Positions 6,402 through 19,624 of a stretch of 19,624 nucleotides of DNA are shown piece after piece. Positions within the stretch are counted from its first letter, which is position 1. Every line of letters starts with the position of its first letter. A program made the position numbers and the translations under genes. The stretch comes from Marinospirillum sp. (GTDB taxonomy: Bacteria; Pseudomonadota; Gammaproteobacteria; Pseudomonadales; Halomonadaceae). The notes under the pieces are model-generated. The model saw only the letters and a list, made by a program, of their open reading frames with translations. It had not been told where the DNA came from and made no database searches. The DNA lies in assembly GCF_014859565.1 (NCBI RefSeq), contig NZ_JACUUA010000056.1:1-19624 (forward strand), in the 5' to 3' direction.

Positions 6402-8954
6402 TCACTCTTGCTGCAAATCCTCTCGTAAAGACCGCTCCAGCTTCTTGGTTTCGGTAATATCCAGCAAGGTAATTACCACCCCATCAATAACGTTATCAAA
6501 CCGGCAATAAGGCATGATTCGCACGGTAAACCAGCGATTGTCAGTGGTGGCGATCTGCTTCTCAGAAAATGCCAAAGTATTCAGGGTATTGCGAGCATCA
6601 TCGTTCAGTTCAGGATACTGCAGGGTGGTGGTGAGGTCGCTCAAAGGCCGGCCGATATCACCCTCTCTGATACTGATAATCTTTGAAGCCCGGTCGGTGA
6701 AGCGCCGCAGATTCAAGTTCTGGTCGAGAAACAGAATGGCAATTTCGATGCTGTTAAGCAGATTTCTCATATCACTTTGAGCAAGGGCAAGATCATCCAG
6801 CTTGGTCTGCATTTCCGAATTGATGGTTTGCAGCTCCTCGTTCATCGACTGCATTTCTTCCTTGGAGGTGGTCAGCTCTTCGTTGGTTGACTGCAATTCC
6901 TCATTGGTTGATTGCAACTCCTCGTTGGCTGATTGCAGCTCCTCTCTGGAGGCACGATTTTCCTCTCGCAAAGCCTGGATTTCATCCTGACACTGTTGCA
7001 GCTCGACGGTGTGAATCTGCTGCGTGGTTGTTTTTGATTGGTTCTTGTTTTTCGAGTCGGCCTGAGGCGGTGCAATGTCGCGGAATACAATCATCTTCAT
7101 GCCACGCAGCGCGGCTGGCTCTCGCAGTGCTTGTACCGTGACATCAATACTCTGTGTGCCCCCACCGGGCAATTGCACCTGCAGGGTTTGCAGTTGCAGC
7201 GGTTCACCTTGATCCGCGACCTTGCGCAGGGCGCTGCCGATGGGCGTTCGCAGACCTTCCCGCACCATGGCATGAAAATTCCAGTTGGCTTTGCCAGCAG
7301 CAGGTTCCAGGTATTTTCCTGTGCGCCCGCTGATATAAACAATATCGCCCTCGTCATTAACCACCACGGCGGCAGGTGCATACACCTGCAACAATACCTG
7401 GTCGGCTGCCGTTTGTAGGTTATCTGTTGTTGGAGAAGGGGAATGGCTGGGTGTCACAGGAAGCTCCTTGGATATCCAGGACAAGGGTGGAAAAGATTTG
7501 ACTGGTAACCGGGCAGCATCACTCTGAACCTTGTTCTGGCGTCGATAAAGTCGCAGCTTTGATTCAATAGGGGTAAACAACTGAGTATAACGCCCAATTG
7601 TCTCTGAACTCCCCAGTAGCAGCACTCCCCCATCACGCAGGCTGTAATGAAACAGCGGAATGAGTTTGCGCTGCAGACTGGGATCAAAATAGATCAGCAG
7701 ATTGCGACAGGAAATCAGATCAAGACGAGTAAAAGGCGGATCAAGCACCACATCCTGCTGGGCGAATAACACTAAATCGCGAATATCGCTGTTAATCTGG
7801 TAGCCCTTGTTACGGGGGCTGAAAAAACGCGCCAGGCGCTCCGCCGAAACGCTGCTGCTGATTTCTGCAGGGTAATAGGCACGCCGGGCAGTGGCGATAG
7901 CATCCGGGCTCAGGTCAGAGGCAAAAATCTGCAGGGTAAAACCATGCGGCTGTGGTAGTTTTTCCAGCACCTCAGTAAAAATCATGGCAAGAGAATAAGC
8001 CTCTTCACCGGTTGAACAACCCACCACCCAGGCACGCAGATGAGACTCTCCAGAATCTCGCGCCAGCAGTTCTGCCAGAGTGGTTTCCGCCAGATGCTGC
8101 CAGACCGCAGTATCACGGAAAAAACGGGTTACCCCAATCAGCACCTCTTTAAACAGCAGGTCGATCTCCTGAGGGTTGTGCTCCAGAAAATCCGCGTAGA
8201 GGGATAAAGTAGCAATTTCGTGAATCCCCATGCGCCGCTCCATGCGACGGTGCAGCGTACTGGGTTTGTAGAGTGAAAAATCATGGCGCGTTCGCTCTTG
8301 CAACAAGCGCAAAATCCGCTGCAAGGGTGTTGATCTTGCATCAGGCTCAACCGAATGCACGTCCGGGGTGTTTTGATCCGGCTCCTGGGCAAGGCAGGAC
8401 AGAATGCGGGCGGGCAAATCACCGGGAGGGGCAAGGATATCAGCACAGTCTGCGGCAATGGCACTTTGTGGCATGGCATCGTACTGTGCCGTATCGGGCT
8501 GCTGCACAGCTGTTAAACCACCAACACTCTTGATTGCCTGCAGACCCTGGGTGCCATCAGAACCCATGCCAGACAAAACAACCCCGATGGCACGCTCCCC
8601 CAGAGCACTGGCCAGGGATGAAAACAGCACATTAATGGGTAAACGCAAGCCTCTGGGTTCCACCGGCCTGGCCAGGTGCAGTGAACCATCAACCACACTC
8701 AGCTCGGTATTCGGTGGAATCACATACACACAGTTGGGCTTGATGGACATGCCCTGAGTTGCTTCACGCACGGGCATATGGGTGACACGCTGCAGCAGTT
8801 CTGTCAGCAACGCTTTATGGTTGGGATCAAGATGCTGCACCACCACATAGGCCATATTACTTTCAGGCGGGATTCCGGCAAGAAAGGCTTCCAGCGGAGC
8901 CAGACCACCAGCAGATGCGCCAAGCCCTACAATACGCGTGGATTCAGCACTCAC
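6402..8954 (-). CDS. CheB-CheR-PAS-coiled coil-PAS fusion protein
   Basis: A cytoplasmic 850-residue fusion that joins the two enzymes of chemoreceptor methylation. Residues about 5-190 are a CheB methylesterase without a receiver domain, with catalytic Ser14 (GASAGG), His41 (VVQHLDP) and Asp133 (SGMGSDGTQG). Residues about 208-475 are a CheR methyltransferase: a helical N-terminal domain, a SAM-binding motif VGCSTGEEAYSLA (311-323), and DLISCRNLLIYF (412-423). A PAS domain follows (about 520-630), then a coiled coil with NEELQST heptads (650-725), and a last PAS domain (730-835) ending in DITETKKLE. Related proteins often continue into a histidine kinase, but this one stops after 15 more residues. 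The start is GTG at 8954; an in-frame TAG lies just upstream. It overlaps the preceding PAS gene by 11 bp, so translation is probably coupled. Confidence 0.93.
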   Translation of the reverse strand: MSAESTRIVGLGASAGGLAPLEAFLAGIPPESNMAYVVVQHLDPNHKALLTELLQRVTHMPVREATQGMSIKPNCVYVIPPNTELSVVDGSLHLARPVEPRGLRLPINVLFSSLASALGERAIGVVLSGMGSDGTQGLQAIKSVGGLTAVQQPDTAQYDAMPQSAIAADCADILAPPGDLPARILSCLAQEPDQNTPDVHSVEPDARSTPLQRILRLLQERTRHDFSLYKPSTLHRRMERRMGIHEIATLSLYADFLEHNPQEIDLLFKEVLIGVTRFFRDTAVWQHLAETTLAELLARDSGESHLRAWVVGCSTGEEAYSLAMIFTEVLEKLPQPHGFTLQIFASDLSPDAIATARRAYYPAEISSSVSAERLARFFSPRNKGYQINSDIRDLVLFAQQDVVLDPPFTRLDLISCRNLLIYFDPSLQRKLIPLFHYSLRDGGVLLLGSSETIGRYTQLFTPIESKLRLYRRQNKVQSDAARLPVKSFPPLSWISKELPVTPSHSPSPTTDNLQTAADQVLLQVYAPAAVVVNDEGDIVYISGRTGKYLEPAAGKANWNFHAMVREGLRTPIGSALRKVADQGEPLQLQTLQVQLPGGGTQSIDVTVQALREPAALRGMKMIVFRDIAPPQADSKNKNQSKTTTQQIHTVELQQCQDEIQALREENRASREELQSANEELQSTNEELQSTNEELTTSKEEMQSMNEELQTINSEMQTKLDDLALAQSDMRNLLNSIEIAILFLDQNLNLRRFTDRASKIISIREGDIGRPLSDLTTTLQYPELNDDARNTLNTLAFSEKQIATTDNRWFTVRIMPYCRFDNVIDGVVITLLDITETKKLERSLREDLQQE
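6881..6943 (-). repeat. Three 21-bp repeats encoding coiled-coil heptads
   Basis: Three imperfect tandem copies at 6881-6901, 6902-6922 and 6923-6943 encode the repeated heptad NEELQS(T/A) of the CheB/CheR fusion. The copies differ at a few bases each. Gain or loss of a unit would keep frame and change only the length of the coiled coil between the two PAS domains. Confidence 0.85.
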
Positions 8955-9639: not shown

Positions 9640-11244
9640 TCACACTGGCGGTAGATTCAGCTCCTTCAGGTATTGATTGTGTCTGTCAGATGCTTCGCGA
9701 ATGCGCTTTTCGATGTCTGACAGTTGCGCATGTACAGTGGCAAGATCAATCTCCGGCTCCGCCTCGGCAGTACTGACGTAGCGGGAAATATTAAGGTTGT
9801 AATCGTTCTTCTCGATTTCCACCATCTCTACCCGGCGGGCATAGCGTTCTTCTTCCCGTCGGTACTGGTAGGTCTCGACAATTTTGTCGATATGTTCCGG
9901 CAAAAGCTGATTCTGTCGTTTGCCCTTATCAAAATACTCGGCGGCATTGATGAAAAGTACATCATCAGGCTTTTTGCACTTTTTCAGCACCAGAATACAC
10001 ACCGGGATGCCGGTGGAGAAAAACAGGTTGCTCGGCAAGCCAATAACCGTGTCGATATGGCCGTCCTTGAGCAGTTTAGTGCGGATACGGCTTTCTACAC
10101 CGCCTCGGAAGAGCACACCATGGGGCAGAATGATGGCCATGGTTCCCTCGTCGCCGAGGAAGTGGAAACCGTGCAGCAGAAAGGCAAAATCCGCAGCGGA
10201 CTTGGGTGCAAGACCATAGTTTTTGAAACGAAAATCTTCACCCAGGGCTTCATTGGGCTGCCAGCGGTAACTGAAGGGTGGATTAGCCACCACCGCATCG
10301 CACTAGAGTTTTCTGGCCGGATTCATCTCGTTGAGCAGCTCCCAGTCATTGGTCAGGGAGTCACCGTGGTGTATCTCGAATTCACTGTCCTTCATCCCAT
10401 GCAGCAGCATGTTCATGCGCGCCAGGTTGTAGGTGGTGATGTTCTTTTCCTGCCCATAAATCTTGCCGATGCCGTGCGGCCCCATCTGGTTACGCACGTT
10501 CAGCAGCAGCGAGCCGGAGCCACAGGCGAAGTCCAGCACAGAGCTGAGCTTTTTCTTTGTTCCTGAGGCGGGTTCCTGGCTATCCAGCGTGACAATACGC
10601 GAAAGGATGGTGGAGACACTTTGCGGGGTATAAAACTCCCCGGCTTTCTTGCCGGAACCAGCCGCAAACTGACCGATCAGGTATTCGTAGGCATCACCCA
10701 GAATGTCGCTGTCGGTGGAGAACTGCGCAATCCCCTCGGCGATCTTGGTAATGATGGTGCAGAGTTTGTCATTACGTGCTTTGGGGGTTCGTCCCAGCTT
10801 TTCCGAGTTCAGATTGATCTCGGAAAACAGCCCCTGAAAGGTGCTTGCAAAGGATTGATTCTCGATATAACTGAATCCCCGCTCCAGGGTTTGCAACAGC
10901 TCGGCATCCTGAGTGCGGGCACATTCGTAGATGCTGCTCCACAGATAGTCCGGGTGAATGCAGTAATGCACCTTGCGACGCATTTGCTTCTCGAACTCAG
11001 CCACATCCCCGGCATTGTTTGCATACCAGGCCACCAGAGGTGCACGACGGTCGTTATCAGCCAGATTGGGATAGTCCGATCCCAGTTCCTTTTTTGCTGC
11101 CAACTCGTAGTTATCGGAAAGATAGCGCAGAAACAGAAACGACAACATATAGTCGCGGAAATCATCAGCGTTCATCGCCCCGCGCAGGTCGTCAGCGATG
11201 GCTCAGAGGGTTTTACCCAGCTGGCTCAGTTGTTCTTTTGTCAT
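9640..11244 (-). pseudogene. hsdM: Type I restriction-modification methylase hsdM, two in-frame stops
   Basis: The gene for the DNA adenine methyltransferase subunit of a type I R-M enzyme. Read from the ATG at 11242-11244 it keeps one frame for 535 codons. The N-terminus MTKEQLSQLGKTL is followed by TGA at codon 14 (11203-11205), where homologues have Trp. Translation then resumes as AIADDLRGAMNADDFRDYML. The SAM-binding motif DFACGSGSLLL is at codons 238-248. Codon 314 is TAG (10303-10305), in a segment reading RKL-stop-CDAVVANPPFSY, seven codons before the catalytic NPPF (10273-10284). There is no frameshift, and the rest reads as normal HsdM to its stop. Internal starts exist (ATG at 11175, GTG at 10293) but without good ribosome sites. 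Two separate nonsense changes point to gene decay, or less likely to sequence error. It is the last gene of the R-M operon. Confidence 0.9.
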
Positions 11245-11276
11245 GTATTTTGTTCTCTTAGGTGATTGACCAAGCG

Positions 11277-11306
11277 ACCACAATGAACCACAATAAACAC
11301 CAATAT
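11277..11306. repeat. Three 10-bp near-direct repeats in the Abi-hsdM gap
   Basis: Three consecutive 10-bp units, ACCACAATGA, ACCACAATAA and ACACCAATAT, lie in the only real gap (97 bp) of the R-M operon, upstream of the hsdM start. The spacing equals one DNA turn, so they would face the same side of the helix. They could be an operator for hsdM or the remains of a small repeat element; no function is shown by the sequence. Confidence 0.6.
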
Positions 11307-11341
11307 GACTGGCGCCTCTGCATTTATGTACGCGTCAGTTC

Positions 11342-12301
11342 TCATTTCTGATTCTGCAATAGCCATTGCTCCCATCCTTTGATCGCACCAAAATCCTCCA
11401 GTGTTAAAAGCTGGCTGCTGGAAGTCACGCCCACTCTCAATAAATCAACCAAACGCTGAGCCCAGGTGGAATTAGGGCAAATGACTGCCAACAAGTGCGC
11501 CATGATGACAAAATACATGAAAGGCCGGGTATTTTTCATGGTTGGCCATCCCTGCGGGCAAGGGGACAGCTCCAGTACGTTGATATTCCACAAGCGGCTG
11601 TGATGCGCAGACACATTGCGGATAAAGTTCAGGCTGCGCAGCCATTGGGCGAGTGTTTTTCCTTCAGCAAGACCATACTTTTTGGCTATCAGGTTCTTGT
11701 CCGGGTGCTTCATCCCGTCAAAAAGCCGTGAAAGTAAACCAAAGTCCCATACTTCAATGGCCACCCAGACAGGTACCTGGCCGTTATACTTCTCTTTATG
11801 GTGCGCAATAAAAGGCTCCCGTCTGGCTCGATGCAGCATATTTTCATACTTTTCCAGCCAAACCTGGTGGTCGGTTTTTCCTTTGCTGGCTCCGTTAGCT
11901 CTCACCTTTTTGGCAAAGTTACCGTGAAGGCAATCCGGATTCTGATGAGCTTGTGGATCTCGTTCACCCAGCAAATGCGCCACGTCCACGCGAAGCGCCA
12001 TTTCAATTCTTTCCAGTGCATCCAGTGCCATCAGGCGCAGCTTTTTATCAAACACATAAAGCTTGACGACCTTCTCAAAATGACTGCCCGGAACAAAGCA
12101 ATCTGAGCGAATAGGTCGCTTGTGCAGCAAAGAGGCCTGCTTGTCTATCTCTCGCAGCGGATACCAATAACCACTGAGCCGGTAGTAGCCAATTCGTGCC
12201 AGATAATCCAGCGCTGCTGATTCGTTGTCCACCAACAAACCCCGCTTTTTCAGCAAAGCCAATTGATCAGACATTGATTTCCAGGGTTTCAAATCAGTCA
12301 T
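11342..12301 (-). CDS. Abi_2 (AbiD/AbiF-type) abortive-infection HEPN protein
   Basis: A 319-residue protein of the Abi_2 family (AbiD/AbiF), first known from lactococcal phage-abortive systems and belonging to the HEPN group of RNases. Family hallmarks are ARIGYYRLSGYWYPL (35-49), FDKKLRLMALDALERIEMALR (84-104) and LNFIRNVSAHHSRLWN (224-239). The last contains the HEPN RNase signature R-x4-H (Arg228, His233). RNA cleavage leading to growth arrest on phage attack is inferred from the family. The ATG overlaps the stop of the upstream gene as ATGA, so the two are probably translationally coupled. hsdM lies 97 bp downstream. This is an insertion within a restriction operon, where such genes are often carried as accessory defence. 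Confidence 0.87.
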   Translation of the reverse strand: MTDLKPWKSMSDQLALLKKRGLLVDNESAALDYLARIGYYRLSGYWYPLREIDKQASLLHKRPIRSDCFVPGSHFEKVVKLYVFDKKLRLMALDALERIEMALRVDVAHLLGERDPQAHQNPDCLHGNFAKKVRANGASKGKTDHQVWLEKYENMLHRARREPFIAHHKEKYNGQVPVWVAIEVWDFGLLSRLFDGMKHPDKNLIAKKYGLAEGKTLAQWLRSLNFIRNVSAHHSRLWNINVLELSPCPQGWPTMKNTRPFMYFVIMAHLLAVICPNSTWAQRLVDLLRVGVTSSSQLLTLEDFGAIKGWEQWLLQNQK

Positions 12302-13836
12302 TTGGGGGTCATGCCTCGGCCTTTTTCTGTCAACCGGTACTTCTGCAGGCGGCTGCGGGGTTTGTCGGGTATGGTCATTTCGATCAGCCCCTTGCGAATA
12401 GCTGTTTGCAGATAGTGCTCCCTGAAATGCTTTTCGTCCTTTAAACTCAAGGCTTCCATCAACTCTAAGCGACCCATCTCGCCTTGAAGCACTTCAAGCA
12501 GTCTGCCCACTTCGGGGGTGACTTCGGGGGTGACTTCGGGGGTGACTTCGGGGGTGACTTGTTCGGCTACTTCCCCAGCAAAACCCTCATGCACTGGCAA
12601 GCGGATCAAAAACGAACTTCGTTCATCATCGCTTTCAAAGCGCGGCTGGGGTGAACCATTGGCTTGCATTACCCGCAGAATTTTGGGGATACCGGTGGAA
12701 CGACCCTCGGTGAGATCCAGCTCCTTCAGAAACTCCCCGATGCGGCGGTTACGGTAACGGCGACTGACAGCACGACCAGCCTGCAGATCCTCCATTCGAA
12801 TAGACCGATCCGGGCCGGGGAAGCTGAGCACCACCAGTTCCTCCGGGGTGATACGCACCTCTATGGGCTCACGGATTTCATAGGAGCGGTGATATACCGC
12901 ATTCACCACTGCCTCTTCAATGGCCGCCAGCGGGTAGTTCCAGAAACGCTCTGCCTGGGGGCGATCCGGGTGCTTGATCACGGCTTCCTTGAGGTAGCTG
13001 CGGTTGATGTAGTCCACCGCATCACGGGTAATACGCCCCAACGGGCCACGAAACTCCTTTTCCTCGAAGCGATCACCGCCCGGCCCATCGGGGAAATACA
13101 CCACATCAATCTGGGTAGCAGGAAAAAAATGCTCAGGGTGATCGTTGAAAAACAGCAGTCCAACATTTTTGGGAAATGCCAGCTCCACCGGGCCACCTAC
13201 CACATTCATACGCCGTCCCAGCGCTTCGTTATCCAGGCTGGCCGCTTCGCCTGCCAGCTCACTGCCAATCTCCTGAAGAAATTCCCGCATAAGATGCGGT
13301 GACAGATCAGTAAGGTGAGCGTTCTGCCGATAGCGATCATCAAACGGCACCGTCGCCGCCAGCGACAGGAGTTCTCGCTCATCCACCCCTTTCGCCCGTA
13401 CAGTGCTGGTGTGCTTGCGCAGATAAAAGGCCCAGTCGGTACTCTTATCGCCCAATCGCACCCGAGCCTTATAAGGTCGAGTCTCGCCGCCGGGCACCCA
13501 GAGTACAAGAATCAGCTTGCCCTGAACTTCATAAGTGGCGGTCAGGGGGTGATAGGATGGTTGAATCGCCGCATTACCCAGATTCAGCAACTCCTTCTGG
13601 ATCCGGTCAATCTGTTCTGGCTGCAAGCCAGCAGGTGGCAAGACTGGCTGGCCATTTTCCTCCGCTACGCCCACCACCAGATAACCACCCCCAAGGTTGT
13701 GAAAATCGTTGGCAAAGGCACAAATACTGTGCAACACCGCCTCCGGATTCCAGCCCGCCTTGTACTCTACCCGCTCACTTTCGATGGAGCGGTGGTGAAG
13801 CAGGGAGTCGAGATTGATGGGGAGTTTGGTGGTCAA
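12298..13836 (-). CDS. AlbA_2-domain ATP-binding regulator with VTPE linker
   Basis: A 512-residue protein of the COG2865 type (AlbA_2/Schlafen-like domain plus a GHKL-like ATPase region). Residues 15-150 form the AlbA_2 domain (ESERVEYKAGWNP at 19-31, NLGGGYLVVGV at 47-57). Residues about 295-415 hold the ATPase-like part (AAIEEAVVNAVYHRSY, then RNRRIGEFLKELDLTEGRSTGIPKI). A VTPE repeat linker follows at 427-443, then a C-terminal winged helix (445-510) ending in the RSRLQKYRLT pattern seen in Fic-family tails. Members are common beside type I R-M genes; the exact role is unsettled and could be regulation or defence. The start is probably TTG at 13836, supported by GGAGG ten bases upstream (13847-13851) and by a 4-bp overlap with the hsdS stop; no upstream ATG is in frame. 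Confidence 0.85.
   Translation of the reverse strand: MTTKLPINLDSLLHHRSIESERVEYKAGWNPEAVLHSICAFANDFHNLGGGYLVVGVAEENGQPVLPPAGLQPEQIDRIQKELLNLGNAAIQPSYHPLTATYEVQGKLILVLWVPGGETRPYKARVRLGDKSTDWAFYLRKHTSTVRAKGVDERELLSLAATVPFDDRYRQNAHLTDLSPHLMREFLQEIGSELAGEAASLDNEALGRRMNVVGGPVELAFPKNVGLLFFNDHPEHFFPATQIDVVYFPDGPGGDRFEEKEFRGPLGRITRDAVDYINRSYLKEAVIKHPDRPQAERFWNYPLAAIEEAVVNAVYHRSYEIREPIEVRITPEELVVLSFPGPDRSIRMEDLQAGRAVSRRYRNRRIGEFLKELDLTEGRSTGIPKILRVMQANGSPQPRFESDDERSSFLIRLPVHEGFAGEVAEQVTPEVTPEVTPEVTPEVGRLLEVLQGEMGRLELMEALSLKDEKHFREHYLQTAIRKGLIEMTIPDKPRSRLQKYRLTEKGRGMTPK
12509..12556 (-). repeat. Four perfect 12-bp tandem repeats (VTPE codons)
   Basis: Four identical 12-bp units (plus-strand ACTTCGGGGGTG) at 12509-12520, 12521-12532, 12533-12544 and 12545-12556 encode the TPEV linker of the AlbA_2 protein. 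Perfect identity, including third codon positions, suggests recent slippage. Copy-number change would add or remove four residues without a frameshift. Confidence 0.95.
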
Positions 13837-15101
13837 ATCTGTGTTTCCTCCACAGCGGGGAAAAGCTGCTGCATCAGGCCTTTTTTATGGGTCTTGAGGG
13901 CGTCGAGTTTTTCCGTATGTGCAACTACCAGCGCATCGAGGGACGAGAGGCAATCAGCGATTTTTTGTTGTTCGGATAAACTTGGCAACATTATTTCTAT
14001 CCTCTTGATTCCAATTAGGCTCATCCCCGCCTTTGTGCCAGTATCGGTTGATGCACAGAAAAGCTTCTGAGTCCTTTCAGATGCAAGAAAGTAGGCGGCA
14101 TACTTTCCGGAAATTTTTGTTCTATCGAAACGTACAAGCGCAATATGTTGATTGATGTAGGCAGGCAGCGGAATACTGGCATCAACGTAACCTACAATTC
14201 CAATATCAGCCGTGATGGAAACCAACACGTCATGCTCTTTGAGCTGAGTTCGCATACCTTCATTCGCTCCCTGTGGGAGCTGAACGAATTTAGGGTCTGT
14301 CAGATCCAAGTAGATGGAGCCGCGCCATAGGTTCGTTATGCGGACGAATAGTTCACCTTTGTCGGCATAATACGCCGCCCAACCCCGTGAACCACTGGTC
14401 ACAAAAGGGTTCAAGTCACCAAGCATTTTTACTGCCCACTCCCCAACCTCCCGAAACTCTGGGAAGCGCAACCGGGGGATGGTTTCGCCTTCGCGGGGGA
14501 AGAGTTGTTGCATCAGCCCTTTTTTATGGGCCTTGAGGGCATCAATCTTGTCAGTTTGGGCTGCTATCAGCGCGTCGAGGGAGGAAAGGCAAGCAGCGAT
14601 TTTTTGTTGTTCTTCAGGGGCTGGCACTGCAAGAGTGTATTCCTTCATTAAGGAAATATCACCTCTTGGCATTTTTACACCCTTGGCACCTTCCATTACA
14701 TAGTTAATAAATACATCACTTTTAAGCAGTACTGACAGAAATGATTCATGGACACTATCCATTGGGCGTATAACGATTACATCGTTAGATGCGGCTCCAT
14801 CACAATCAGCTACCCAAACTTTTTTCAAGTATGGGCGGATGTTGGCAATAAGAATGTCCCCCGCCTTGAAGCAGGTAAAAGAGCCAGAAGGAGGCAGCTT
14901 GGATGCACATTTTTTCCCACCGAAATCGGGAAGCAAATTCTCTGTGCTGACGTAGCTTTCAATACGGAGATCATTGAGCGAGATCCGTTTTTTTACAAAG
15001 GTTGCTATACCTTTTGTTCCAAGCTGAGTTTTGCGCCACTCCCCTGCCTCCCGAAACTCGGGAAACCGCAACCGGGGCACCAGTGCATTTTTCTCGTCCA
15101 T
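13833..15101 (-). CDS. hsdS: Type I restriction-modification specificity subunit HsdS
   Basis: The DNA-recognition subunit of a type I R-M complex, 422 residues, the usual size. It has two target-recognition domains (about 23-160 and 223-375), each preceded by a conserved RLRFPEFRE(A/V)GEW segment (10-22 and 210-222). Each is followed by an EQQKIA(A/D)CLSSLDAL helix with a HKKGLMQQLFP end (163-202 and 376-415). This two-fold layout sets the two halves of a bipartite DNA target and the spacer between them. Both halves are intact and the recognition domains differ, so the protein looks functional. The start codon shares one base with the stop of the DinD-like gene (TAATG), and its stop overlaps the TTG start of the AlbA_2 gene. 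Its target sequence cannot be read from the protein by eye. Confidence 0.95.
   Translation of the reverse strand: MDEKNALVPRLRFPEFREAGEWRKTQLGTKGIATFVKKRISLNDLRIESYVSTENLLPDFGGKKCASKLPPSGSFTCFKAGDILIANIRPYLKKVWVADCDGAASNDVIVIRPMDSVHESFLSVLLKSDVFINYVMEGAKGVKMPRGDISLMKEYTLAVPAPEEQQKIAACLSSLDALIAAQTDKIDALKAHKKGLMQQLFPREGETIPRLRFPEFREVGEWAVKMLGDLNPFVTSGSRGWAAYYADKGELFVRITNLWRGSIYLDLTDPKFVQLPQGANEGMRTQLKEHDVLVSITADIGIVGYVDASIPLPAYINQHIALVRFDRTKISGKYAAYFLASERTQKLFCASTDTGTKAGMSLIGIKRIEIMLPSLSEQQKIADCLSSLDALVVAHTEKLDALKTHKKGLMQQLFPAVEETQI
13865..14612 (-). repeat. Two ~109-bp diverged direct repeats within hsdS
   Basis: The stretches 13865-13973 and 14504-14612 are near-direct repeats, offset by 639 bp (213 codons), coding for the two conserved helices after each recognition domain. 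A shorter pair at 14436-14474 and 15036-15074, offset by 600 bp, codes for the segment before each domain. They are diverged at many bases but long enough to allow homologous exchange of recognition domains with other hsdS genes. Confidence 0.85.
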
Positions 15102-15358
15102 TACTCTTCCAGCCCATCAGGATTTTTAAGTGCTTTTTTCTCATCCGATGCCAGGCGTCGTTCAACCTTTTTCACATCTTCGGCAGGTGGCAGGCTTTCC
15201 GGACGGATTCCCCGACTCAACAGCGTTTGGCGCACGGCTTCGTTATTGGTGACATGCTCTTGTGAGATTTGTTTTTCGCTTTGCATCTTCTGACTGCGGG
15301 TGTTGTGGATGGTGATCTCGGCAGCGAAGTCGTTGGCCTTGAGGATGAGCTTATTCAT
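15101..15358 (-). CDS. Small protein matching the C-terminus of DinD
   Basis: An 85-residue hydrophilic protein. From NKLILKANDFAAEIT to the PPAEDVKKVERR segment it follows the C-terminal end of DNA-damage-inducible protein D (DinD), including the EAVRQTLLSRGI(R)PE(S)LPP region. The N-terminal two-thirds of DinD is absent. The start at 15358 is well supported: GGGAG lies just upstream and the ATG overlaps the end of the DUF1016 gene by 8 bp. A longer in-frame extension to 15535 would run wholly inside that gene and is rejected. It shares one base with the hsdS start. The neat fit into the operon argues for a maintained gene rather than debris. Its function is unknown; it may bind or modulate an R-M subunit. 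Confidence 0.75.
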   Translation of the reverse strand: MNKLILKANDFAAEITIHNTRSQKMQSEKQISQEHVTNNEAVRQTLLSRGIRPESLPPAEDVKKVERRLASDEKKALKNPDGLEE

Positions 15359-16367
15359 TGTTTTCTCCCAGCTGCTCTGCCAGTTCATGCAATCTAGCTT
15401 GCAGGAGTTTTTTGTCTGGTAGTTGTAATTGGTACTCGGCGACCAGGGTTGGCGAAAGATTTCGTGATAGTGCGTATTCCACCACTTCATCGTCTTTATC
15501 GCGGCAGAGCAGCACGCCGATGCTGGGATTTTCATGCGGTTTTTTTATGTCACGATCCAATGCTTCAAGATAAAAGCCAAGCTGCCCCATGTGTTTGGGG
15601 CTGAATTTGCCGATTTTGAGCTCGAAAGCGACCAAGGCAGACAGGCCACGGTGGTAAAAGAGCAGGTCGATGTAAAAGTCTTGATTTCCTACTTGAAGGC
15701 GGTATTGCTCATCAACGAACAAGAAGTCACGACCTAGTTCGAGGACAAAAGTCTTCATGTGCCGGACGAGGGCTTTCTGTAGGTCGCTTTCGCTATGGTC
15801 TTCAGGTAAGCCTAGAAATTCAAGGACATAGCTGTCCTTAAAAGCTTGACCGATCCCGCTGGGGAATTCTCTCGGCAATGCCGAGAGTTTTTTCTGGCTG
15901 GCCACTGCACGCTCAAACTGGGCCGCATCAATCTGCCGCTCAAGCTCGCGGGATGAATAGCGTTCGCGAACGCATTGTGCCAAGTAGTACGCACGCTCCT
16001 CATTGGTTTTGCAGCGGGAAAAGATAATGGTGTTGTGCGTCCAGGGCAATTCTCGCACCAGCGACGAGAGTTTTTCATCCGCCTGATAAGTCTCGTAAAA
16101 CTGCTTCATCCGCCAGAGGTTTTTGTCGCTAAAGCCTTTGATACTGGGATCTGTGGCGGTAATGTAGGAGGCCAGCGCTGTTACGACACCTTTGCCCCAC
16201 GCCTGTTGTTTCACTTTTTCGCTCAGGAGCCGCCCAACCTCCCAATACAATGCCATCAGCGCCGTATTGGCCTGCTGGAAGACTTTGGCGCGGGTCGCCT
16301 GAATCGTATGCAGGATGTGGGCAAAATCTTCCTGCGCGTTTGAGTGGGCTGGGGATTTTTTACTCAT
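15351..16367 (-). CDS. DUF1016/YhcG-type PD-(D/E)xK nuclease-family protein
   Basis: A 338-residue protein of the DUF1016 (YhcG) family. The N-terminal helical domain (about 10-165) includes ANTALMALYWEVGRLLSE (33-50) and the family's RELPWTHNTIIFSRCK (105-120). The C-terminal PD-(D/E)xK nuclease fold is visible as NQDFYIDLLFYHRGLSALVAFELK (228-251), with Asp234, Glu249 and Lys251 as the likely metal and catalytic residues. All are intact, so nuclease activity is plausible, though the substrate is unknown. Members often sit beside or inside type I R-M operons. It overlaps the end of hsdR by 8 bp and the next gene by 8 bp, so it is firmly part of this transcript. Confidence 0.92.
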   Translation of the reverse strand: MSKKSPAHSNAQEDFAHILHTIQATRAKVFQQANTALMALYWEVGRLLSEKVKQQAWGKGVVTALASYITATDPSIKGFSDKNLWRMKQFYETYQADEKLSSLVRELPWTHNTIIFSRCKTNEERAYYLAQCVRERYSSRELERQIDAAQFERAVASQKKLSALPREFPSGIGQAFKDSYVLEFLGLPEDHSESDLQKALVRHMKTFVLELGRDFLFVDEQYRLQVGNQDFYIDLLFYHRGLSALVAFELKIGKFSPKHMGQLGFYLEALDRDIKKPHENPSIGVLLCRDKDDEVVEYALSRNLSPTLVAEYQLQLPDKKLLQARLHELAEQLGENNE

Positions 16368-19300
16368 ACGCCGCCAACCCCGATATCTCGCGCCCGCTGG
16401 CTTGTTTTTTCAGAAGAGGTATCAGTTCTTCCATCAGTGCCAGTTCGGCTTTGCTGCGCGCCTTCCAGCTCAGCTCCAGTGGCTCGAACAGGTCGCTGAG
16501 TTGTTCGCCGTCGAAGATCATGCGGTCCAGAATAGCGTTTACGAAGTTTTTCAGGTCATCGCAGTTCAGTCCGTGGCGGTTGGCCAGGGCGGTGATTTCT
16601 TTGTGGGCTTTCTGTGCTTTGAAGGCCAGGTAGCCGTGTTTGATGTCCTGCTCTTTCAACCCTTCACCCGCTTGCAGGGTGTTGATGTAGTCAATGATAT
16701 CCTCGCGCTCTTCCATCAGGTTGCTGCTGGCGCTGAGCATGTTCACCAACTGTTCACGGCTTACGGTTTGTTTGCCGGGCTTTTCCTGACTGAAGCGGGC
16801 GGCCAGACCCATGATGTAGTCATAGTCGATCAGTGCCGAGGAGAAGAGCACAAATTCAAAATCCAGTTGTTCGATGGCTTCCTGATCGGGTGAGGCTTGT
16901 GCACCGGTTTTGCCCTGCTGTTCCTTCAGGCGCTGAGCCGTTTCCAGGTAAGCGCCGCGCAAGGAGCGCAGATCGTCTTCGGGCAGCACACTGTTGATCT
17001 GTGCTTTCTGCTCTTCATTCAGGTCGGTGTACTGGTCGAGCTGGGTCTTGAGACGCTGCACTTCCTTGAAGCGGTTGACGAACTCGATGCGCGCGGTATC
17101 ACCCCGGAGGTTATAGACACCCTGGGGTTCAGCCACAACATCTTTTTCAGTGAGGAAGTGCCCGATGGCAGAGACCGCCTCTTTGTATTTTTCGATCACC
17201 GTCGGCGCCGGATCCACCAGCCAGATTTCGCGGGAGCGGTTGATGTCTTCACCGGAAAATAGCGCAATGGCTTCATCCACGGCCTGCTGCTGGCCGCGAA
17301 AGTCGAGAATATTGCCATAGGGCTTGGTGTCGTTCAGTACTCGGTTGGTGCGTGAAAATGCCTGAATCAGACCGTGGTACTTGAGGTTTTTGTCCACATA
17401 CAGGGTGTTGAGGTACTTGGCATCAAAGCCAGTGAGCAGCATGTCCACCACGATGGTGATGTCGATCTTGTGTTGGTGTGGCAGGTCGCTGTTGGGGTAT
17501 TGCTGATCCTTGATGCGCTGCTGCACGTCCTGATAGTAGCGGTCGAACTCGCTGACACTATGGCTGGTGCCGTACTGGGTGTTGTAGTCGGCAATGATCT
17601 CTTGCAGGGCAGCTTTTTTCTGTTCCGGTTCCTGCTGGTTGTCGGCCATTTCCTGCGGCAGGTCTTCCTGCAGCTGTTTCACATCCTTGTCGCCATTGGC
17701 TGGCGGTGAAAAGACGCAGGCAAGGTTGAGCGGCACGAAGTCCGGGTCTTCTGCTTGCATTCCAGACTGGATCTCTTTAAACAGCCGGTAATAGGCAATC
17801 GCATCATTGATGGAGGCAGTGGCCAGCAGGGCGTTGAAACGGCGCTGGTTGGTGGCGGCTTCATGCTTGCTGAGAATGGCATCCACCACTGCGCGCTGAG
17901 CCAGAGCCTGATCAGGTCTGGCTTTTGCCTGCGTTGTCTCGGGCTTGTAATAGTCGATATGAAAGCGCAGCACATTGCGATCATCAATGGCGTGGGTGAT
18001 GGTGTAGGCGTGCAGCTGCTTCTCAAAAATATCCCGGGTTGTGCGGTAGCTGCCCACGGTGCCATCGATCTGCTTGTAACTGGCGTTGTCATCAAAAATG
18101 GGCGTGCCGGTAAAACCGAACAGTTGTGCTTTTGGAAAAAAGCCCTTGATGGCCTGATGGTTATCACCGAACTGAGAGCGATGGCACTCGTCAAAAATGA
18201 TGACGATGCGTTTGTCACGCAGCGGAGCCAGTCGTTCCTTGTAGGTTTGCCTGCCCTTTTCCTTGTGCTGCTGAGCTTTTTTTCCAGTTTCATCCAGCGC
18301 CAGGCCGAGTTTTTGGATGGTGGTGACGATCACCTTGTCGGCGTAGTCCTCGGAGAGCAGGCGGCGCACCAGGGTTTCGGTATTGGTGTTTTCCTCCACG
18401 CAACCTTCCTGAAAGCGGTTGAATTCCTCGCGCGTCTGGCGATCCAGATCCTTGCGATCCACCACGAACAGGCATTTTTCAATGTCCGGGTTGTCCTTCA
18501 GCAGGGTGGAGGTCTTGAAAGAGGTGAGCGTTTTGCCACTGCCGGTAGTGTGCCAGATGTAGCCGTTACCCCGGTTCTGGTGGATACAATCAACAATCGC
18601 CTTGACCGCATAGATTTGGTACGGGCGCATGATCATCAGTTTCTGTTCACTCGCTACCAGCACCATGTAACGGCTGATCATCCGACCCAGGGTACATTTA
18701 GCCAGGAAGGCGTCGGCGAAGTCGTCCAGGTGGGTGATCTTGCGGTTATCTTCATCAGCCCACTGGTAAATGGGTAAAAAACGCTCGTCGGCGTTGAATG
18801 CAAAATGCTGAGTCTGGTTGTTGGCGAAGTACCAGGTATGATCGCGATTGCTGACAATAAACAACTGCATGAAGCACAGCAGCGTGTTGGTGTAGCCGTT
18901 GCCGGGTTCATTACGGTATTCGACAATCTGCTCCATGGCTCGGCGCGGGTTGATGCCCAGCGTCTTCAGCTCGATTTGCACCACTGGCAAGCCGTTGATG
19001 AGCAGGATCACATCGAAGCGGTGGTGGCTGTTGTCGGTGTTGATGCGCAGTTGGTTGATGACTTCAAAGTCGTTTTTGCACCAGTCCTTGAGGTTGACCA
19101 GCATGTAGTGCAGCGGGGTGCCGTCTTCACGTTGAAAGTAGCCATATTCACGCAGGGTTCTGGCAGCCTGGAAGACATCGGCATTGATAATCTCATCGCG
19201 CAGGCGGGCGAACTCAGCGTCGGTCAGGCGTACATGGTTGAGCGCCTCGAATTTCTGGCGGAAGTTCAGCTCCAGAGTGGCCTTATCGCGGATATCGGAG

Positions 19301-19371
19301 CGGTAGCTGTACTTGAGTTCTTCGAGCTTTTTGATCAGTTTTTGCTCGATGTTGCTTTCTTTTTGAGTCAT
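16360..19371 (-). CDS. hsdR: Type I restriction enzyme HsdR (nuclease-translocase subunit)
   Basis: The motor and nuclease subunit of a type I R-M enzyme, 1003 residues. It cuts DNA far from an unmodified target after ATP-driven translocation. The N-terminal nuclease motif is complete: Asp120 (HRFDVILLING) and QIELK with Glu134 and Lys136. The superfamily-2 motor has Walker A TGSGKT (276-281), the DECH box (394-397), and TGTP (421-424), followed by a long helical C-terminus. A further 28 in-frame residues exist upstream (to 19455), but ATG at 19371 starts the family-like MTQKESNIEQKLI and is preferred. It is the first gene of the operon, downstream of ffs on the same strand; a promoter in the 184-bp gap (19372-19555) was not evident. 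It appears functional although hsdM is broken. Confidence 0.96.
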   Translation of the reverse strand: MTQKESNIEQKLIKKLEELKYSYRSDIRDKATLELNFRQKFEALNHVRLTDAEFARLRDEIINADVFQAARTLREYGYFQREDGTPLHYMLVNLKDWCKNDFEVINQLRINTDNSHHRFDVILLINGLPVVQIELKTLGINPRRAMEQIVEYRNEPGNGYTNTLLCFMQLFIVSNRDHTWYFANNQTQHFAFNADERFLPIYQWADEDNRKITHLDDFADAFLAKCTLGRMISRYMVLVASEQKLMIMRPYQIYAVKAIVDCIHQNRGNGYIWHTTGSGKTLTSFKTSTLLKDNPDIEKCLFVVDRKDLDRQTREEFNRFQEGCVEENTNTETLVRRLLSEDYADKVIVTTIQKLGLALDETGKKAQQHKEKGRQTYKERLAPLRDKRIVIIFDECHRSQFGDNHQAIKGFFPKAQLFGFTGTPIFDDNASYKQIDGTVGSYRTTRDIFEKQLHAYTITHAIDDRNVLRFHIDYYKPETTQAKARPDQALAQRAVVDAILSKHEAATNQRRFNALLATASINDAIAYYRLFKEIQSGMQAEDPDFVPLNLACVFSPPANGDKDVKQLQEDLPQEMADNQQEPEQKKAALQEIIADYNTQYGTSHSVSEFDRYYQDVQQRIKDQQYPNSDLPHQHKIDITIVVDMLLTGFDAKYLNTLYVDKNLKYHGLIQAFSRTNRVLNDTKPYGNILDFRGQQQAVDEAIALFSGEDINRSREIWLVDPAPTVIEKYKEAVSAIGHFLTEKDVVAEPQGVYNLRGDTARIEFVNRFKEVQRLKTQLDQYTDLNEEQKAQINSVLPEDDLRSLRGAYLETAQRLKEQQGKTGAQASPDQEAIEQLDFEFVLFSSALIDYDYIMGLAARFSQEKPGKQTVSREQLVNMLSASSNLMEEREDIIDYINTLQAGEGLKEQDIKHGYLAFKAQKAHKEITALANRHGLNCDDLKNFVNAILDRMIFDGEQLSDLFEPLELSWKARSKAELALMEELIPLLKKQASGREISGLAAYE

Positions 19372-19555
19372 CCTGTTATCACTTCCTGATGTGTCCAGAG
19401 CCCACCGTGTATAGGTACTGTTTTGCTTTTGATAGCAGCCACAAATGAAACCCAACTTACCGATTTATCAGGCGAATGTCTATTGACCCAGCACAGCGCG
19501 AAATCAGGCTAAGGAGCTGGGGGATAGTACAGGAGGGTTTTTGCTGCCCTGAAAT

Positions 19556-19624
19556 GGAGATGACCCCTGCCAGCCACATCCCGGCACACACATCCATCAC
19601 TACCGTTGCTCCCTTCCGGGCCTG
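19556..19624 (-). ncRNA. ffs: Signal recognition particle 4.5S RNA (ffs), 3' part only
   Basis: Read on the minus strand, the last bases of the window match the apical and 3' part of bacterial 4.5S SRP RNA. They show the CCGGAAGG tetraloop region that binds Ffh, GGGAGCA, then TGTGTGCCGGGATGTGGCTGGCAGGGG. The 5' end lies outside the window, and the 3' end near 19556 is inferred. The short 4.5S form without an Alu domain is typical of proteobacteria. Confidence 0.93.

Follow-up and report, generated by a model that had tools for sequence, protein, structure and literature searches.

The window, meaning the whole stretch of 19,624 bases that was analysed, carries a same-strand set of genes in the order hsdR, DUF1016/YhcG, a dinD remnant, hsdS, AlbA_2 + Fic-like_C, Abi_2 and hsdM. 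The set was assigned to a type IC R-M system by the presence of hsdM, hsdS and hsdR together, and by an EcoR124_C domain in HsdR. Some gene names in the window are a reading of the sequence, rather than a profile or protein match. The features of the operon, with the basis for each assignment where applicable, are as follows.

9640..11244, minus strand: hsdM, interrupted frame of the type IC R-M system (translation, domain and TIGR00497 matches, alignment)
11203..11205, minus strand: TGA, codon 14 of hsdM; Trp in the relatives compared
10303..10305, minus strand: TAG, codon 314 of hsdM, ahead of NPPF; residue variable among relatives
10303..11175, minus strand: first open piece of hsdM, 290 aa from Met24, covering the bulk of HsdM_N and the beginning of N6_Mtase
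9640..10293, minus strand: second open piece of hsdM, 217 aa from GTG codon 318, with the NPPF half of N6_Mtase and the C terminus
11342..12301, minus strand: Abi_2 (AbiD-like) gene, open frame (domain match)
12298..13836, minus strand: AlbA_2 (Schlafen-type) + Fic-like_C gene, open frame (domain match)
13833..15101, minus strand: hsdS with two Methylase_S stretches, open frame (domain match, alignment to L001)
15101..15358, minus strand: 85-aa C-terminal remnant of dinD (matches positions 202-287 of the 288-position family profile)
15351..16367, minus strand: DUF1016/YhcG nuclease-like gene, open frame (domain match)
16360..19371, minus strand: hsdR, an open frame of 1003 aa with an EcoR124_C domain (domain match, alignment to L001)

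Read from 11244 to 9640, hsdM is a single frame of 534 codons, with its natural stop at codon 535. Retranslation recovered both of the in-frame stops reported in the initial annotation, TGA at codon 14 and TAG at codon 314, and placed the N of NPPF at codon 321, so that TAG indeed lies seven codons ahead of this motif. Pfam searches matched HsdM_N in the first open piece and N6_Mtase (PF02384) in both pieces. Scored separately against TIGR00497, the pieces reached 157.7 and 179.5 bits, against a cut-off of 242.75 that is a whole-protein threshold. Alignment with the HsdM of Halomonas sp. 25-S5 (locus L001) gave 91% identity over all 534 codons with zero gaps, which argues that the frame is not a product of chance.

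The domains of this frame and their order are those of EcoR124-type (type IC) HsdM, as represented by TIGR00497 and by the EcoR124II M protein (PDB 7BST); the PDB relatives were found with the intact L001 HsdM as query. The likeness extends to HsdR with its EcoR124_C domain and to HsdS with its two Methylase_S stretches. Unlike the EcoR124-type HsdM, the window frame is interrupted twice, with each piece below the TIGR00497 cut-off, and the uninterrupted hsdM reading frame expected of a type IC system was not found in the window.

The operon had been described as otherwise intact. For hsdR and hsdS this holds, as both frames are open at full length and align to their L001 counterparts over full or nearly full lengths. 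It does not hold for dinD, which is a 5'-truncated remnant. A full 280-aa dinD is located between hsdR and hsdS in L116, which comes from a genome of the G163 family (see below); the remnant shares 83% identity with the C terminus of this full dinD. Gene order places the DUF1016 gene where the missing part of dinD should be. The ATG of the remnant overlaps the stop of the DUF1016 gene. In the AlbA_2 protein (12298-13836), there is a tandem run of four TPEV units, whose copy number could vary.

The L001 stretch shares with the window the order hsdR, hsdS, hsdM, with the end of an AlbA_2-type gene just before hsdM; identities for hsdR, hsdS, the AlbA_2-type end and hsdM are 88, 38, 78 and 91%. 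Relatives of DUF1016 and Abi_2 were not found in the L001 stretch, and the left flank of the window gave zero matches in it. This shared order without a shared left flank suggests, on sequence comparison, that the operon seems to move between genomes. Comparison of ten loci matched the katG or CheB/CheR-PAS region alone in four; each of these four covers only 5.1-6.1 kb, and boundaries of the operon insertion were not found among the ten. In the left flank, a PAS-domain gene runs at its end into the GTG start of a CheB-CheR-PAS gene (overlap at 8944-8954), which suggests coupled translation. On the other side, the window, apparently a whole contig, extends for only about 250 bases past the hsdR start in the upstream direction (19371-19624), and whatever follows lies out of view.

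Relatives were compared at both stop positions. The Trp that the initial annotation expected at codon 14 is carried by 79 of the 79 loci covering the site, out of 80 fetched as the best matches to the first hsdM piece only, and by 121 of 121 full-length HsdM proteins. At codon 314, a residue is present in all 80 loci, and the 121 proteins carry Q (76), K (42) or H (3), with a stop in none. The stops thus constitute disabling changes relative to intact orthologues, a criterion for pseudogenes, and the relatives compared do not share them. Both close relatives are intact, unlike the window hsdM: L001, 91% identical over its full length, and the full-length protein P0258, which is 97.9% identical. 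P0258 is two residues longer than the window HsdM and differs from it at 11 residues. Polarisation of these differences put P0258 off the majority at five and the window at two, with four undecided, so that 2 to 6 may be specific to the window.

The frequency of in-frame stops in hsdM was surveyed in the 80 loci and in the family and class of G163. Of the 390 genomes that were sampled from the L001 order, G163 matched katG best (80% of bases) and was chosen on that ground; its family is a stand-in for that of the host, whose membership was guessed from KatG. One in-frame stop was found in 3/80 loci, L050 among these with a frameshift as well, in 2/59 listed matches of the family survey and in 2/85 listed matches of the class survey; the 59 and 85 count entries in the listed tables and include distant methylases, and in the class survey at most three candidates per genome were scored. 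Two in-frame stops were seen in no relative across these three surveys (80 loci, 59 and 85 listed matches). A TAA listed for G413 in the family survey was not seen again in alignments of L117. The hsdM genes of L062, L073 and L115 are 72-74% identical to L001 HsdM and align over nearly the full length, while that of L050 aligns from residue 36. Like the window hsdM these four carry in-frame stops, but only one each and at other positions, which fall on residues 91 (L062), 510 (L073), 102 (L115) and 39 (L050) of L001 HsdM. A fifth stop-bearing case, L118, is a distant methylase (37%). The stop positions that could be placed differ from one another. In L115, hsdM lies at about 10945-12540 and is 72% identical to L001 HsdM, with its stop aligned to Trp102; in the same fetched stretch, hsdR was matched at residues 4-131 only. 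A twice-stopped hsdM is thus rarer than a singly stopped one, yet is not a new kind of locus, and represents ordinary R-M gene loss.

The ends of 120 short HsdM relatives from the database are scattered across the gene; this set was limited to proteins below 508 aa and is enriched for broken and partial genes. Its top-scoring member, P0001, shifts frame a few codons before NPPF, near the place of TAG. A hotspot before NPPF was considered on account of P0001 and rejected, as the scatter of the ends suggests coincidence. The scatter also bears on a split HsdM, in which two polypeptides, broken at TAG and restarted at GTG codon 318, would reassemble. The pieces do divide N6_Mtase into a first part and an NPPF part, and the GTG falls just after TAG. 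Codon 318, however, is not preceded by a Shine-Dalgarno-like site (0.2 kcal/mol), TGA is left unexplained, and codon 314 encodes a residue in 80/80 loci and 121/121 proteins. Neither a break common to relatives nor a proper start for the second piece, the marks of a split methyltransferase, was found, and we regard this arrangement as hardly credible.

Outside the stops, hsdM is nearly undecayed. Window-specific amino-acid changes numbered 17, against 16 specific to L001, with 79 outgroup rows; three of these rows are duplicates, and the counts are unchanged with the 76 distinct rows. For hsdR as a control, with 47 outgroups, the counts were 40 and 28. Branch omega values for hsdM with three outgroups were 0.050, 0.083 and 0.041 for the window and 0.048, 0.038 and 0.085 for L001, with no significant difference (LRT p 0.96, 0.22 and 0.58). 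For hsdR with two outgroups, they were 0.040 and 0.084 for the window and 0.064 and 0.035 for L001, the second comparison giving p 0.036; all omega values are rough because the outgroup branches are long or saturated. Excluding the stops, hsdM of the window shows 0 departures at columns conserved at ≥98%, while the 121 intact HsdMs average 1.45 such departures, with 6 at most. These specific-change, omega and conserved-column tests gave no sign that selection on the remaining codons had relaxed; a recent break would indeed leave no such sign. The distribution of nucleotide changes leans the opposite way. Polarised with six relatives, changes at codon positions 1, 2 and 3 numbered 7, 12 and 14 for the window and 4, 6 and 23 for L001 (positions 1+2 vs 3, 19:14 and 10:23, Fisher p 0.046). 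This result tilts towards relaxed selection in the window lineage, and the break would then be older. Long-standing decay of hsdM nevertheless found no support in the conserved columns, the balanced changes, omega or the random-mutation estimates described below.

The constraint on the whole frame is that expected of a working gene, and would also fit a full-length HsdM made by read-through or suppression of the stops. It is equally explained by recency, and suppression would have to act on two stop codons of different kinds. The 14 other gene frames in the window terminate in TGA (7), TAG (2) and TAA (5); these were picked from the open-frame list, and the absence of stops inside them partly reflects that choice. 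As all three stops are used as gene ends, no stop codon appears to be reassigned. A search of the window with Rfam at gathering thresholds found no tRNA gene or known RNA element, and the relatives compared are without these stops. Read-through or suppression is thus extremely improbable. Recoding or a variant genetic code found no support, since the stops are not conserved in relatives and all three stop codons serve as gene ends.

A difficulty for a recent break is that random mutation would seldom yield a pair of nonsense changes and next to nothing else. Under neutral decay with four mutation schemes, about 3% of random mutations in hsdM created a stop (0.029-0.035). Among the numbers tried, exactly two stops were likeliest at 60 mutations, and at about 60 the probability of the observed hsdM conservation was 0.0000. 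The observed conservation fits 10 mutations (0.28-0.43) and hardly 20 (0.004-0.020), while at 2-5 mutations the probability of exactly two stops is about 0.001-0.01. Since the locus was singled out for having stops, only the second stop is surprising. That surprise leaves room for a partly functional first stop, or for a mixed or faulty assembly.

An assembly artefact or multi-strain consensus would account for one or both stops if the contig joined alleles with one stop or none. The window is apparently one whole 19,624-base contig, as its length equals that of the contig bearing its KatG, and errors or mixed alleles also predict scant decay of hsdM and two stops without neutral companions. 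The contig does not look error-rich in the frames checked, KatG and hsdR. The window KatG, whose closest named relative is from Nitrincola (86%; two others are 94 and 93% identical), departs at 2/429 columns conserved at ≥98%, against 2 and 3 in near relatives, and the alignment of hsdR covers the whole gene and meets no stop. Stops would moreover be no more frequent from random errors than from random mutations. Overall, we judge an artefact or mixture unlikely.

A partly functional first stop could arise from a restart at Met24, which would bypass TGA such that TAG alone is the true null and TGA only trims the N terminus; the need for a second hit would then be explained. Met24 lies 10 codons past TGA, with an anti-SD energy of -5.0 kcal/mol, compared with -2.9 at the hsdM start itself. 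Internal starts are also annotated for nonsense alleles of E. coli dcm and rpoS in an excerpt of PMC4444293. Among the 120 database relatives below 508 aa, 10 start at Met24 (7) or Met33 (3), but six of the seven starting at Met24 also stop early or carry an unrelated tail, pointing to broken or partial genes. The invariant Trp14, together with a single residue difference from L001 in the first 23 codons of the window hsdM, further argues that the N terminus matters. A restart that renders TGA largely harmless is therefore quite unlikely. By extension, HsdM activity might persist if a Met24 restart were combined with either read-through of codon 314 or another restart there, with a low or conditional dose of methylase keeping the constraint. 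The nearly undecayed frame and the better ribosome-binding match of Met24 make such activity compatible with the data, but recency explains the undecayed frame more simply, and we consider persistence highly improbable.

The broken copy might also be tolerated if a second compatible HsdM elsewhere in the genome acts in trans, which would itself be compatible with a recent loss. Genomes with multiple HsdM-like genes exist, such as Halomonas G001 with 6 HsdM_N matches. An HsdM at least 70% identical to that of L001 was, however, present in only 2/116 genomes of the G163 family, and in at least 13/369 genomes of its class with up to three candidates scored per genome; a compatible second copy seems very unlikely.

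Taken together, the data are best explained by a very recent pseudogenisation of hsdM by two nonsense substitutions, in a horizontally spread type IC operon, to which we assign a probability of roughly two in three. Translation of hsdM would end after 13 residues, and a piece restarted at Met24, if made, would stop short of NPPF. The type I methylase is named as M2S in an excerpt of PMC4444293; cleavage requires M, S and R all together according to part of PMC9465063; and a gonococcal type I system that became inactive when HsdM and/or HsdS was disrupted is reported in an excerpt of PMC6789123. With these excerpts as support, the proposal in the initial annotation that neither modification nor restriction should persist without HsdM is likely right. 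Neither an M2S methylase nor a complete endonuclease would be expected to form, and the two activities would be lost together from the cell. HsdR does not cut without M and S, and for this reason the loss should be harmless. Judged from its sequence, the type I system is most likely silent.

The initial annotation had also put forward the embedded DUF1016, DinD-like, AlbA_2 and Abi genes as reasons for retention of the operon. Such reasons are unneeded: hsdM is nearly undecayed, an intact copy is 97.9% identical, and dinD is itself a remnant. From the first two of these observations, the break seems so recent that the operon would not yet be expected to disappear, and the same recency would account for the persistence of its other genes. 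Type I loci that are otherwise present but have likewise lost one subunit gene are NgoAXVII of Neisseria gonorrhoeae, described in the excerpt of PMC6789123, and hsd loci of Mycoplasma agalactiae, described in that of PMC9465063. The excerpted M. agalactiae case differs in that hsdR is disrupted and methylation kept, whereas in the window hsdM is disrupted and both activities should go.

If this reading is true, the locus would be one more snapshot of type I turnover, taken just after the loss and while hsdR and hsdS remain open. It is also a cautionary case, as domain or operon annotation alone would call the system active. The locus would matter more only if methylation occurred despite the stops.
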